Assembly: GCF_000265295.1 (NCBI RefSeq)
Contig: NC_018002.1
Coordinates: 558,001 to 622,000 of the forward strand
Source: Sulfurospirillum barnesii SES-3
GTDB lineage: Bacteria > Campylobacterota > Campylobacteria > Campylobacterales > Sulfurospirillaceae
Length of the DNA: 64,000 nt
Reading direction: 5' to 3'
In this document: positions 981-55,215 of the stretch, piece after piece
How positions within the stretch are numbered: position 1 is the first letter of the stretch
Layout: each line of letters begins with the position of its first letter
Position numbers and translations under genes: made by a program
The notes under the pieces: model-generated
What the model was told of the DNA's origin: nothing
What the model saw: the letters and a program-made list of their open reading frames with translations, nothing else
The model's database searches: none

Positions 981-2852
<1,872 letters not shown>

Positions 2853-2865
2853 TTATCTCCTTATT

Positions 2866-2956
2866 TCCTACGCTGGCATTACCCAGATCAGGTTCGTGAA
2901 GCCACATTAATGGACTTCTTGGGGTATTATCTCAGCCATACGTTCGGCACCCCCAC
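2866..2956 (-). promoter_or_regulatory. TPP riboswitch (THI element) in the thiC leader
   Basis: Read on the minus strand the leader contains the conserved blocks in order: GGGGGTGCC, GGCTGAGATAATACCC, then GAACCTGATCTGGGTAATG and CCAGCGTAGG, ending just before the thiC ribosome-binding site. These are the pyrimidine- and pyrophosphate-sensing helices of the TPP aptamer. Its end is so close to the ribosome-binding site (about 6 bases) that control of translation initiation is the likely mechanism. Confidence 0.95.
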
Positions 2957-2981
2957 AGACAATGGTAAACAATTGAGAGAG

Positions 2982-2987
2982 ATTATA
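2982..2987 (-). promoter_or_regulatory. Likely -10 box of the thiC promoter
   Basis: The minus strand reads TATAAT here, about 25-30 bases upstream of the first riboswitch helix. No clear -35 box is seen. Confidence 0.5.
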
Positions 2988-3081
2988 CAACACTACACAA
3001 AGAGCTTACTTAAGAAAAAGGGTTGTCCTTAAAAAAATAAGTAATCCTTTAAAAAGCGTTTACATTCTTTACATGTAAGAA

Positions 3082-3498
3082 TTAGCGGGCGATAATAAAG
3101 GTGCTGTCTTTAACTTGAAAGTGATGTCTATCACTTAGGGGGATAGGAAAAGGGGCGCACACATTGCCCATAAATTCAGGAACACTAAGGTGGTATGTAT
3201 TTTCAGGGTATTTCTCTTCCAATAGTACTTTGGCAGAGCCGATGATTTGATTGGCAATTTCTTTGAGTAAATCGTCCAAATCATTTTCACTCAGGTTTTC
3301 TTCAAAAAGCAGGTTAAAGGCAATTTCATCTAAGACCTTTTTTTCAAAAAAGAGATACCACGTGTGTTCACATCCATTTTCGAGTAAGGCAATGGCTGAG
3401 CCATAAAAGTACTCTCCCAACGTTTCAATTTTCTGAGGAATTTCACACAAAATCGTCTCACAAAAATGGTGTGTTGCTTCAATCACAGCTTCTTTCAT
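3082..3498 (-). CDS. CheX-like chemotaxis phosphatase-domain protein
   Basis: 138-aa single-domain protein. The segment LLKEIANQIIGSAKVLLEE (E80, N83, G87) matches the E..N...G helix that forms the CheY-P dephosphorylation site of CheC/CheX/FliY proteins. CheC has two such helices; only one is visible here, as in CheX. It probably removes phosphate from CheY or acts as a related adaptor. It stands alone, transcribed away from the amino-acid permease, and has no chemotaxis neighbours. One palindrome copy (3069-3078) lies just after its stop codon and another (3579-3588) lies upstream. Confidence 0.7.
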   Translation of the reverse strand: MKEAVIEATHHFCETILCEIPQKIETLGEYFYGSAIALLENGCEHTWYLFFEKKVLDEIAFNLLFEENLSENDLDDLLKEIANQIIGSAKVLLEEKYPENTYHLSVPEFMGNVCAPFPIPLSDRHHFQVKDSTFIIAR

Positions 3499-3607
3499 GT
3501 TTTCCCTTTAATGAAGATACGTCTAGGCATTATAAGCCAATTTTTTTAAATTGTAGATTACACAGTGTTTTAGATGCTTTACATGTAAAGATTTTTTTGA
3601 AAAAAGA

Positions 3608-3613
3608 TACAAT
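3608..3613 (+). promoter_or_regulatory. Likely -10 box of the amino-acid permease gene
   Basis: TACAAT at 3608-3613, 33-38 bases before the start, in an AT-rich stretch that begins with a TTTACATGTAAA palindrome at 3578-3589. The palindrome therefore occupies the -35 region. Confidence 0.4.
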
Positions 3614-3645
3614 AATGCTTTGATTTTTACGAATGAAGGAATGTG

Positions 3646-4983
3646 ATGCACAAACATAAGCTTTCAAGAGGCTTACAAAATAGGCATGTACAATTAATTG
3701 CCTTAGGTGGAGCGATTGGAACGGGTCTTTTTTTAGGAGTTTCAACCACCGTTCAACTAACAGGTCCTGCGGTACTTTTAGGGTATGCACTGGGTGGATT
3801 TATTGCGTTTATGATTATGAGACAACTGGGTGAAATGGTTGTTGAAGAGCCTGTGGCTGGCTCATTTAGTCACTTTGCGAACAAATACTGGCACCCGTTT
3901 GCGGGTTTTGCCTCAGGATGGAACTACTGGATTTTGTATGTTTTAGTGGGTATGGCAGAACTCACCGCCATTGGTACCTTTGTCCATTTTTGGTTGCCAC
4001 AGATTCCTGTGTGGGTTTCAGCGGCATTTTTCTTTGTGTTGGTCAACCTTGTCAATTTGGTGAATGTTCGCATTTACGGCGAGTTTGAGTTTTGGTTCTC
4101 TATTATTAAAGTGGTGGCGATTGTTGCGATGATTGCTTTTGGAAGTTACTTACTCATCAGTGGAAACGGTGGAGAGAGTGCGAAAATTAGCAATCTTTGG
4201 GCGCTTGAGGGTGGTTTTTTCCCACACGGGCTTCAAGGCTTTTTAATGGCGATGGTGTTCATTATGTTCTCTTTTGGTGGCTTAGAATTGATTGGTATCG
4301 CAGCTGCTGAGACGGATGATCCCAGTCATACCATTCCCATGGCGACCAATCAAGTGATTTATCGTATTTTGATTTTTTACATTGGAGCATTGGCGATTTT
4401 GCTCTCCTTAATGCCATGGATGAACATGACCAAAGATGTCACCCCTTTTGTGATGGTGTTTAAAGTGATTGACCAAAATATTATTGCACATGTGCTTAAT
4501 GCCATTGTCTTAACCGCAGCGCTTTCGGTGTATAACAGCGGAGTTTACTCCAACTCTCGTATGCTTTTTGGTTTGGCGATGCAAGGCAATGCGCCGAAAA
4601 AGTTGATGAAACTAAACTCCAAAGGTGTGCCTGTCAATGCGGTACTTTTCTCTGCGCTCATTACAGGAACGTGTGTCGTGCTCAACTATTTTATGCCTCA
4701 AGATGCCTTTAAATTTTTAATGGCGCTCGTGGTTTCTGCTTTGGTGGTGAATTGGTTTATGATTAGTTTTGCGCACCTTAAATTTCGCTACGCTATGATG
4801 AAAAAGCACATTGAGCCAAAATTTAAAGCCTTTTGGTTTCCTTTTGGCAACATTTTATGTTTGGCGTTTTTTGTGATGATTTTGGGCATTATGCTTTTTA
4901 TTGAGGGGATTAGCACCTCAGTTTATCTTATTCCGATTTGGTTGGGAGTCCTTGCCATCGGTTATAAACTCTCTCGCAAATAA
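3646..4983 (+). CDS. Amino-acid permease of the APC superfamily (AAT family)
   Basis: Inner-membrane carrier of about 445 aa with some twelve hydrophobic segments. The start 'LSRGLQNRHVQLIALGGAIG' followed by GTGLFLG and 'AGSFSHFANKYWHPFAGFASGW' is typical of the AroP/PheP/AnsP-type proton symporters. The exact substrate cannot be read from the sequence. GTG at 3643 and ATG at 3646 are both possible; AAGGA at 3636-3640 favours the ATG. The gene is monocistronic, and two palindromes follow it at 4995-5021. Confidence 0.85.
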   Translation: MHKHKLSRGLQNRHVQLIALGGAIGTGLFLGVSTTVQLTGPAVLLGYALGGFIAFMIMRQLGEMVVEEPVAGSFSHFANKYWHPFAGFASGWNYWILYVLVGMAELTAIGTFVHFWLPQIPVWVSAAFFFVLVNLVNLVNVRIYGEFEFWFSIIKVVAIVAMIAFGSYLLISGNGGESAKISNLWALEGGFFPHGLQGFLMAMVFIMFSFGGLELIGIAAAETDDPSHTIPMATNQVIYRILIFYIGALAILLSLMPWMNMTKDVTPFVMVFKVIDQNIIAHVLNAIVLTAALSVYNSGVYSNSRMLFGLAMQGNAPKKLMKLNSKGVPVNAVLFSALITGTCVVLNYFMPQDAFKFLMALVVSALVVNWFMISFAHLKFRYAMMKKHIEPKFKAFWFPFGNILCLAFFVMILGIMLFIEGISTSVYLIPIWLGVLAIGYKLSRK

Positions 4984-51501: not shown

Positions 51502-53037
51502 ATGAAAGAAGTCCCTATTTTAGTTTTAGATTTTGGTTCACAATACACTCAGTTGATTGCACGTAAGCTTCGTGAAAGCGGTGTTTACTGTGAAATCGTC
51601 CCTTATAATGAAAAAATTGAAGATATTCAAAAACGAAATCCTAAAGGAATTATTTTAAGTGGTGGTCCAGCCTCGGTGTATGCAAAAGATTCGTATCATC
51701 CTGATGAAAAAGTCTATGAACTAGGTCTTCCAATGCTGGGTATTTGTTATGGGATGCAACTTTTAACCCAACATTTTGGGGGAAGTGTTATCCCTGCAAC
51801 GCATCAAGAATATGGTAAGGCAGAACTTAAGTTTGAGAGTGATCATAAAATTTTTAAAGACACGACATGTGGTCAAATTGTTTGGATGAGCCATGGGGAT
51901 AGAGTAGAAAAGCTACCTACAGGTTTTGAAAAAATTGGCTTTAGTGAGAATTCTCCGTATGCTGCCATTGCCGATGAAAAACGTAATATGTACGCGTTTC
52001 AATTTCACCCAGAAGTCTATCACTCTGAGCAAGGAAGTAAGCTTCTGAAAAATTTTGCAAAGCATATTTGTGGCTGTGAAAGTACATGGAATATGGGTTC
52101 CTTTGCTAAAGAGCAAATTGCAAAAATCAGAGAAAGAGTGGGTGATAAAAAAGTGTTGTGTGGTGTGAGTGGAGGTGTTGATAGCTCGGTTGTTGCAACG
52201 CTTTTAGCCGAAGCCATTGGCGATAAACTCGTCTCTGTGTTTGTAGACAATGGACTCCTACGTGCCAATGAGAGAGAACAAGTGGAAGCGATGTTTAAAA
52301 GCCGTAATGTTCCATTGATTACGGTCGATGCCAGTGAGAAATTTTTAAGCCGTTTGGCAGGGGTGAGTGACCCTGAGAAAAAACGTAAAATTATTGGTGA
52401 AACATTTATTGAAGTGTTTGATGAAGAGGCGAAAAAACATAATGGCATTCAGTTCTTAGCGCAAGGAACACTCTACACCGATGTTATTGAATCGGTTTCG
52501 GTCAAAGGCCCTTCTAAAACCATTAAGTCACACCATAACGTGGGTGGTCTTCCTGATTGGATGAGCTTTGAGCTCATTGAGCCATTGCGTGAAATTTTTA
52601 AAGATGAGGTTAGAATCTTAGGCGCAGAACTGGGTCTTCCCAAAGATATGTTAAGTCGCCATCCATTTCCAGGACCTGGTCTTGCGATTCGTATTATGGG
52701 CGAAGTAACCAAAGAAGATTTAGTTTTACTAAGAGCTGCGGATGTTATTATGCTTGAAGAGCTTAGAGCAACAGGGTATTATGAAAAAACATGGCAAGCT
52801 TTTACCGTGCTTCTTAATGTCAAAAGTGTCGGCGTGATGGGTGATAACCGAACGTATGATAATACGATTTGTGTGAGAATCGTGGATGCAACCGATGGTA
52901 TGACTGCAACCTTTGCGCACATTCCTCATACGATTTTAGAAAACATTAGTCGACGTATTATTAATGAAGTAAGTGGCATTAATCGTGTGGTGTATGACAT
53001 CTCTTCAAAGCCACCTGCAACAATCGAATGGGAATAA
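51502..53037 (+). CDS. guaA: GMP synthase (glutamine-hydrolysing)
   Basis: 511 aa. Class I amidotransferase domain with catalytic Cys in GICYGMQLL and His/Glu in [14 protein letters not shown] pyrophosphatase loop '[18 protein letters not shown]'; C-terminal dimerisation domain ending KPPATIEWE, the universal GuaA terminus. Overlaps hemD by 10 bp. Confidence 0.98.
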
Positions 53038-53672
53038 AATCTGCTCCTATCTACCTCTTTAGCGACCAATCGCATGAAGGGGTAGAGCATTTGCCTCTAT
53101 TTGAAATCGTTTTTACCTCCTCATCCCCTAGGCTTGAAGAGGTTGATGCGATTATTTTTACCTCCAAAAATAGTGTCAAAGCACTTGAACTGTGTGGCGT
53201 ATATTGGCAAGATAAAGCGTGTTATGCCATAGGGGAGGGAACAGCTGCTGCCATACGTGCCTGCGGCGGCAATCTTCTCTTTACATGTAAACACTCCTAT
53301 GGTGATCTTTTTGCGCACGAACTGATTCCTTTATTGAAAGATAAACGTGTTTTTTTCCCACGTGCCAAAGAGGTTATTTCGCCTTTATTTGAAATTTTAC
53401 ACTCAGCAGGTGTCACTATTTTTCAAGAAATTATGTATGAAACACTCTGTAGACACTATGCCCCTGTTTATGCACCTGCTAAAAATGCTATTCTTATCTT
53501 CACATCTCCCTCAACAGTCCATTGCTTTTTAAAGAATTTTTCATGGGATGAGAGTTATCGTACTATCGTGATTGGTACAAAAACAGCAGCGGTTTTACCC
53601 TTACATGTAAAACCTATCATTGCCGAAGTGCAAACGATAGCGCATTGCGTTGCATTGGCAAAAGCTCTTTAG
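53028..53672 (+). CDS. hemD: Uroporphyrinogen-III synthase
   Basis: 214 aa; cyclises hydroxymethylbilane in haem synthesis. Sequence is weakly conserved in this family, but '[16 protein letters not shown]', '[17 protein letters not shown]' and '[17 protein letters not shown]' with '[11 protein letters not shown]' fit the two-lobed HemD fold. Starts inside the end of guaA. Two palindrome copies (53281, 53601) encode FTCK and LHVK. Confidence 0.88.
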
Positions 53673-53686
53673 AAGCTAAATTTATT

Positions 53687-53692
53687 TATAAT
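53687..53692 (+). promoter_or_regulatory. Likely -10 box of the 6S RNA candidate
   Basis: TATAAT preceding the structured intergenic RNA by about 10-15 bp, the correct spacing for a start near 53700. Confidence 0.55.
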
Positions 53693-53699
53693 TTAAGAA

Positions 53700-53915
53700 C
53701 ACTAGTCATGTAAATGCCTGGGTGACGCGATAACCGTTTTCATGAGGGTCCAACAATTAGTATACGTGGAATTTCGTACATTTTTGGTGTGCCTGTGGTT
53801 TCGTTTGAACTTTGGTAAAAAGTGAGAGATTGCAGCCTAAAGAAAAGGTCAATTCCCAGAAGTTGGCTTATTAGGGCCGCTTCAATCTCGGAACGCTCAC
53901 TTGGGTTTTACATGT
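53700..53915 (+). ncRNA. ssrS: Probable 6S RNA
   Basis: The 268-bp hemD-purD gap has no open frame but folds with its two ends. CATGTAAA (53707-53714) pairs with TTTACATG (53907-53914). CCTGGGTGA-C-GCG (53717-53729) pairs with CGCTCACTTGGG (53894-53905), with one bulge. That makes a closing stem of about 20 bp around roughly 165 nt, the form and size of 6S RNA, which inhibits sigma-70 RNA polymerase. From memory, epsilonproteobacterial 6S genes lie upstream of purD. The 3' arm of the closing stem is an exact copy of the TTACATGTAA palindrome. Confidence 0.65.
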
Positions 53916-53940
53916 AAAGATTTTTTGGGAGAGAACATTG

Positions 53941-55215
53941 ATGAAAGTAATGGTTGTTGGAAATGGTGGTAGAGAGTATTCTATAGGCTTAGCCCTAAAA
54001 AAAGACCCAAATGTCAGTGAACTCTTTTTTGCGCCAGGAAATGGGGCTACACCACAACTAGGACACAATGTTACATGTAAAGATTATGAAGCATTAGCAG
54101 ATTTTGCAAAAGAAAATAAGATTGACTTAACCATTGTAGGTCCAGAAACGGCTTTGGTTGAGGGTATTGTTGATATTTTTAAAGCCAAAGGTTTGGTGAT
54201 CTTTGGTGCTTCAAAAGCAGCCGCACGTTTAGAGGGTTCAAAAATTTTTATGAAAAATTTTCTCTCACGCTATGCCATTCCAACTGCAAAATTTATTGAA
54301 ACCAGTGATGCTCAAAAAGCCAATCAGTTTATCGACACGCTAGAACTTCCTATTGTGGTCAAAGCTGATGGTTTGTGCGCAGGAAAAGGTGTGATTATTG
54401 CGACAAGCAAAGAAGAAGCCAAAGAAGCAGTCGCTGATATGCTCAGTGGTAAAAGTTTTGGCGATGCAGGTTTAGGCGTGGTTGTTGAAGAGTTTTTGGA
54501 TGGGTATGAACTTTCATTGTTTGTGGTCTGTGATGGAGAAGATTATAAAATTCTTCCTGCTGCTCAAGATCACAAACGTCTAAAAGATAAGGATATAGGA
54601 CCTAATACTGGAGGCATGGGAGCATACGCACCAACGCCACTTATTGATGATGTGCTGTATAAAAAAGTAGAAGAGCGTGTGGTAAAGCCAACGCTTATGG
54701 GGATGAAACAAGAGGGTGCCCCTTTTGAAGGTGTTTTATTTATTGGTCTGATGATTGTGAAAAACGAACCCATTGTTTTAGAGTATAACGTACGTTTTGG
54801 TGACCCTGAGTGTGAAATTTTAATGCCTCTTTTAAAAACACCAGCCAGTGAGCTTTTTTACAAAGCCGCTACAGGTGACTTGAAAAATTTAAACATTGAA
54901 TTTTATACTCAATATGCGATTGCTGTAGTGATGGCAAGTGAGAATTATCCTTATGGAAACTCAAAGCCTGCTGAGATTATTATCGATAAGAATATTCATG
55001 AAGGTTTAGATAATACGCATATTTCTTATGCGGGTGTCAGCCTTGAGGATGGGAAACTTTATGCTACAGGAGGCAGGGTGCTTTTGTGCGTAGGAATGGG
55101 TGATAGTATTAAAGAAGCCAGAGAAAGAGCCTATTTGCTGTGTGGACAAGTGCATTTTGTGGGAAAACAATTTAGAAGTGATATTGCATATCAGGCACTT
55201 AAACATGACAAATGA
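53941..55215 (+). CDS. purD: Phosphoribosylamine-glycine ligase
   Basis: 424-aa ATP-grasp enzyme of purine synthesis. Start '[16 protein letters not shown]', ATP-grasp motifs '[18 protein letters not shown]', '[23 protein letters not shown]' and '[13 protein letters not shown]'. A TTG three bases earlier is in frame, but GGGAGAG positions favour ATG 53941. A palindrome at 54071 encodes TCK in '[11 protein letters not shown]'. Confidence 0.97.

Follow-up and report, generated by a model that had tools for sequence, protein, structure and literature searches.

The 268-nt gap between hemD and purD in Sulfurospirillum barnesii SES-3, with guaA upstream of hemD, raises the question of whether it holds a gene of its own or the leader of purD. 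The window (the whole stretch of DNA analysed) is 64,000 nt long, and positions are counted from its first nucleotide. The first-pass annotation had read the gap as a 6S RNA, a known RNA that holds RNA polymerase in check, with a closing stem built from an iterated palindrome. Judged from sequence comparison, the gap very probably encodes a 6S RNA that would most likely bind RNA polymerase as a promoter mimic, and the outer part of its stem would probably be dispensable. It is a known RNA with a lineage-specific end, and its tie to the palindrome is local to one clade. The features of the locus, all on the forward (+) strand, are as follows.

53028-53672, +: hemD, uroporphyrinogen-III synthase, upstream neighbour of the 6S RNA (PF02602, E-value: 2.7e-28)
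53687-53692, +: TATAAT, -10 box of the putative 6S promoter (from the sequence)
53699-53715, +: 5' leader (predicted) that precedes the conserved stem and contains the CATGTAAA arm (53707-53714) and the bulged U53715
53716-53906, +: conserved body of the 6S RNA from closing stem to closing stem, 191 nt (match to model R1, 189.2 bits, the window's own copy L008 being among the sequences used to build R1; covariation over 51 copies)
53716-53729, +: 5' arm of the conserved 13-bp closing stem, GCCUGGGUGACGCG (95.8% of cells paired, seven pairs with changes on both sides)
53747-53751, +: 5' arm of an internal stem, GGUCC, partner of 53874-53878 (97.3% of cells paired)
53776-53906, +: part recognised by Rfam as RF01069, the "purD RNA motif" (91.7 bits, E-value: 2e-16, cut-off 41)
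53874-53878, +: 3' arm of the internal stem, GGGCC (covariation)
53894-53906, +: 3' arm of the conserved closing stem, CGCUCACUUGGGU (covariation)
53907-53918, +: TTTACATGTAAA, a copy of the iterated palindrome of the genus, whose first eight bases partner CATGTAAA (sequence and minimum-energy fold)
53941-55215, +: purD, phosphoribosylamine-glycine ligase, downstream neighbour of the 6S RNA (TIGR00877, 489.8 bits, cut-off 288)

A 6S RNA has been described at this place in relatives. In Campylobacter jejuni, the site upstream of purD makes a 185-nt 6S RNA that has a closing stem and a central bubble, with an antisense product RNA of 13 nt, and its transcript starts upstream of a previously proposed purine riboswitch (PMC3847290). 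The 6S RNA of Helicobacter pylori is encoded in the same region, and a product RNA has been reported for both species (PMC3847290). The Sulfurospirillum locus has an RF01069 segment upstream of purD, where these two RNAs, known here by their published description, are also encoded; it shares with them its location before purD, its size class, and a closing stem with a central bulge (PMC3847290). It differs from them in its longer 5' leader (24 nt from the -10 box to the stem versus 7-8 nt) and in the iterated palindrome that follows the stem in some Sulfurospirillum species. The RF01069 segment is also found in Campylobacter portucalensis (L078), where the copy measures 182 nt from stem to stem and has a promoter close to the stem, and so fits the 185-nt C. 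jejuni RNA. The main text of the 104-motif paper does not mention purD.

A TATAAT sequence stands upstream of the stem in nearly all of the 53 copies collected. The distance from this box to the CC of the stem is 24 nt in the window copy versus 7-10 nt in most other families; several other loci of Sulfurospirillum's family also have long spacings (17-32 nt). From the position of TATAAT, transcription is predicted to start at about 53699-53701. Because the promoter is farther upstream of the stem than in most other families or in C. portucalensis, the 6S RNA here probably has some 16 nt of additional leader. One candidate for its 3' end is the T-run at 53906-53909.

The two Rfam families that bear on this RNA behave differently. 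RF01069 matches the window directly, covering the 3' two thirds of the RNA; its 125-position model leaves out both the closing stem and the first 60 nt at the 5' end, and Rfam classes it as cis-regulatory. RF00013 (6S / SsrS RNA) has no match in the window, even at E-values up to 10, or in the whole genome from which the window comes, and so the fit to this model that the first-pass annotation had proposed as a check came back negative. In orthologues, however, RF00013 matches end to end, over all 187 positions, at scores just below its cut-off of 46.4 (L053, 45.2 bits; L109, 45.7 bits), with weaker full-length matches at the same place in L034, L035, L040, L103 and L104. A full-length covariance model built in this analysis, R1, bridges RF01069 and RF00013. 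In the 2 kb around E. coli ssrS, the best R1 match is at 988-1162, against an annotated ssrS of 984-1166; it is weak (7.5 bits, E-value: 0.037), and the E. coli gene has the same closing-stem motif as the Campylobacterota RNA. Among 200 genomes of the phylum, RF01069 has one match each in 191 and RF00013 has none above its cut-off, and R1 recovers the RNA in eight of the nine genomes without an RF01069 match. The RNA was found by neither RF01069 nor R1 in G030, a 99% complete genome of 1.5 Mb from Sulfurospirillum's family.

The fold is supported by 51 distinct full-length copies taken from relatives within the Campylobacterota and aligned (alignment A1). In the consensus fold of 41 pairs, 94.3% of cells are paired versus 83.3% in shuffled alignments, and 193 cells have changes on both sides versus 48.9 when shuffled; slid registers of the fold are all far worse. 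As the fold was derived from the alignment on which it was counted, and related sequences can exceed shuffles, these figures lean toward the fold, yet the margin over the shuffles is large. The 191-nt body and its 13-bp closing stem fall within the rod of about 160-200 nt, closed end to end, that characterizes 6S RNA. A central bulge is predicted as well: columns 15-36 and 184-202 are mostly unpaired and enclose a short helix of 3 bp. At L053 and L054 (also L052), the apical arm is shorter and the body measures 169-172 nt; L053 is the closest of its set to RF00013.

The typing of RF01069 implies another reading, in which purD has this RNA as its cis-regulatory leader, a riboswitch of the purine type. 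The 91.7-bit match against a cut-off of 41 agrees with it, as does the fact that purD begins no more than about 250 nt downstream of the RNA in 51 of the 53 copies. The association with purD is nevertheless not constant. Four genomes of one family (L105, L107, L109 and L110) keep the order guaA-hemD-RNA with a next gene other than purD, and at L070 an unrelated gene directly follows the RNA, so that five loci are without purD directly downstream. The conserved closing stem reaches 60 nt upstream of the Rfam model, RF00013 matches orthologues at full length, and in C. jejuni the RNA is a separate 185-nt species (PMC3847290). A terminator-like hairpin, judged by eye, lies between the RNA and purD in several relatives. 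The leader reading is thus largely refuted, and is considered extremely unlikely. In purD's place, L105 encodes a reverse transcriptase related to the antiviral Drt4 (2719-4209, after the 6S RNA at 2476-2644; NCBIfam E-value: 1e-38, below the curated cut-off), and other genomes of that family have different genes at this position.

The 6S identity is therefore preferred because the fold covaries, RF00013 matches orthologues, R1 finds ssrS as its best match (weakly) and the RNA persists without an adjoining purD. The earlier proposal of a probable 6S RNA is borne out by the published orthologue data, the family-wide covariation and the bridging RF00013 matches.

The window copy adds pairs outside the conserved stem. 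In the minimum-energy fold of 53700-53925, the ends of the RNA pair over 18 bp with one bulge, comprising 10 core and 8 outer pairs. In the outer part, CATGTAAA at 53707-53714 pairs with TTTACATG, the first eight bases of TTTACATGTAAA, at 53907-53914; U53715 is then bulged, 53716-53725 pairs with the 3' arm over 10 bp, and another bulge is followed by three further pairs (GCG/CGC). That the gap ends pair for some 20 bp, the outer 8 bp using CATGTAAA at 53707, had been proposed from the sequence alone and is recovered here; the exact palindrome copy placed at 53908 is present but starts one base earlier, at 53907. The folding energy of the whole sequence is only mildly better than that of shuffles (z -1.8), but the covariation behind the inner closing stem greatly exceeds its shuffled control, and the outer 8 bp of the window sequence outdo about 99% of shuffled leaders or tails.

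The claim that the palindrome builds the closing stem holds for these outer 8 bp in a small group of genomes and fails for the conserved inner 13 bp, which make no use of the palindrome. An exact 3' copy of TTTACATGTAAA is found at 11 of the 21 loci of the genus. The CATGTAAA arm occurs only at L005, L007, L008 (the window copy) and L010, four genomes that look like one clade, and the arm is missing from seven other loci that do have the 3' palindrome. A palindrome-built closing stem was accordingly rejected as a feature of the genus.

TTTACATGTAAA is abundant throughout the genome. It occurs 582 times in the 2.51-Mb genome versus 0 for a reversed control, and its 10-base core 1230 times versus 6; in 24 genomes of the genus there are 14-792 copies per genome, versus 0-3 for the reversed control. 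The window holds 18 exact copies (for example at 980, 3578, 4994, 5011, 53280 and 53907) versus 0.0 in shuffles. Eleven of these lie fully within predicted genes, six between genes and one across a boundary. By a simple ORF-based call, about 5% of the window is intergenic, which makes the palindrome about seven-fold denser between genes, where a copy falls roughly every 500 nt, and a copy in a 268-nt gap is therefore unremarkable. Occurring far above genome-wide expectation, the short palindrome TTTACATGTAAA belongs with the highly iterated palindromes such as HIP1 of cyanobacteria (PMC4390886), from which it differs in sequence, length and phylum. The HIP1 paper does not mention Sulfurospirillum or ACATGT (PMC4390886), and a search of the available literature found no description of the Sulfurospirillum palindrome. 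One genome of the genus, G009 (locus L006), stands out with just 14 exact copies, and 49 of the 10-base core; exact copies number 62-792 in the others, and in most of them hundreds. This genome could be a natural loss case in which a comparison of gene content points to a cognate factor.

Whether the copy at the 6S locus has a role was considered in three forms. The palindrome might be a working part of the Sulfurospirillum 6S RNA, a self-complementary tail able to pair with either leader type (GUAAA/UUUAC) and so lengthen the closing stem. Besides the outer 8 bp of the four genomes, predictions for L001, L002, L003 and L014 pair the second half of the palindrome (GUAAA) with a leader UUUAC or UUUGC, and at L006, which has no palindrome, AUUUACC pairs with GGUAAAU. 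Leaders fold better with their native tails than with swapped ones (p 0.002, 17 distinct pairs; p 0.015-0.03 in three smaller sets picked to reduce relatedness), where the sets were chosen by eye, several were tried with no correction for multiple trials, and the p values ignore the remaining relatedness. These swap tests are weakly suggestive of extra leader-tail pairing in general. However, L018, L020, L025 and L026 show little such pairing (-2.5 to -3.7 kcal/mol), most single sequences fail to beat shuffles, intergenic DNA throughout the window is rich in the motif, and the 6S RNA may end before the palindrome. A working role is thus unlikely. It is quite unlikely that the palindrome was recruited into the 6S RNA as a tail for either leader type that would tune stability, processing or read-through into purD.

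In the third form, the palindrome would be a terminator or processing signal of the 6S RNA. It lies where several sister-genus copies have a terminator-like hairpin (by eye), and is followed by GATTTTTT. The palindrome nevertheless folds to 0.0 kcal/mol even with the T-tail, no terminator-like site was found in 53600-54050, and the eleven window copies wholly inside protein genes also speak against a signal of this kind, which is very unlikely. With that minimum energy of 0.0 kcal/mol, both for the 12-mer alone and with its flanks, and no terminator-like site, the palindrome was rejected as a hairpin or terminator; the competing local fold once suggested for the 3' end likewise finds no support.

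The first-pass annotation had also tied the iterated motif to the structure of a global regulator RNA. Because the motif is dense in intergenic DNA generally and most of its copies are in protein genes, chance is the simplest reading of this tie. The palindrome at the 3' end of the 6S RNA looks largely coincidental, and only lengthens the base of the stem in one small group of species.

A model for the locus can be outlined. From about 53700 to 53910, the DNA very probably holds the gene for this Sulfurospirillum's housekeeping 6S RNA. By analogy with the RNAs of E. coli, C. jejuni and H. pylori, it would be transcribed as a separate RNA from its own TATAAT promoter. The RNA is predicted to fold as a rod in which the 13-bp closing stem leads through the central bulge into a long arm, internal and apical. 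Like its counterparts in those three species, it would most likely bind sigma-70 RNA polymerase by imitating an open promoter, and be released once the polymerase had copied the bulge into a short product RNA. The comparisons above show the family of the RNA, how it folds, where it is encoded and that it does not depend on purD; transcription, polymerase binding and product RNA come from the analogy. In one clade, the leader complements the palindrome copy after the stem, and the 8 bp that this may add would probably stabilise the base of the rod. This outer part is not conserved, and the RNA probably functions without need of it.

A palindrome link, if true, would be one of few cases in which an iterated DNA motif shapes a regulator RNA, and is not required by the evidence. 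Although the 6S identity in Campylobacterota is already published, the identity and extent of the Sulfurospirillum RNA are now fixed for a gene that RF00013 misses and that RF01069 truncates and types as cis-regulatory. Together, R1 and RF01069 find one copy in nearly every Campylobacterota genome sampled, which argues for the re-typing of RF01069.
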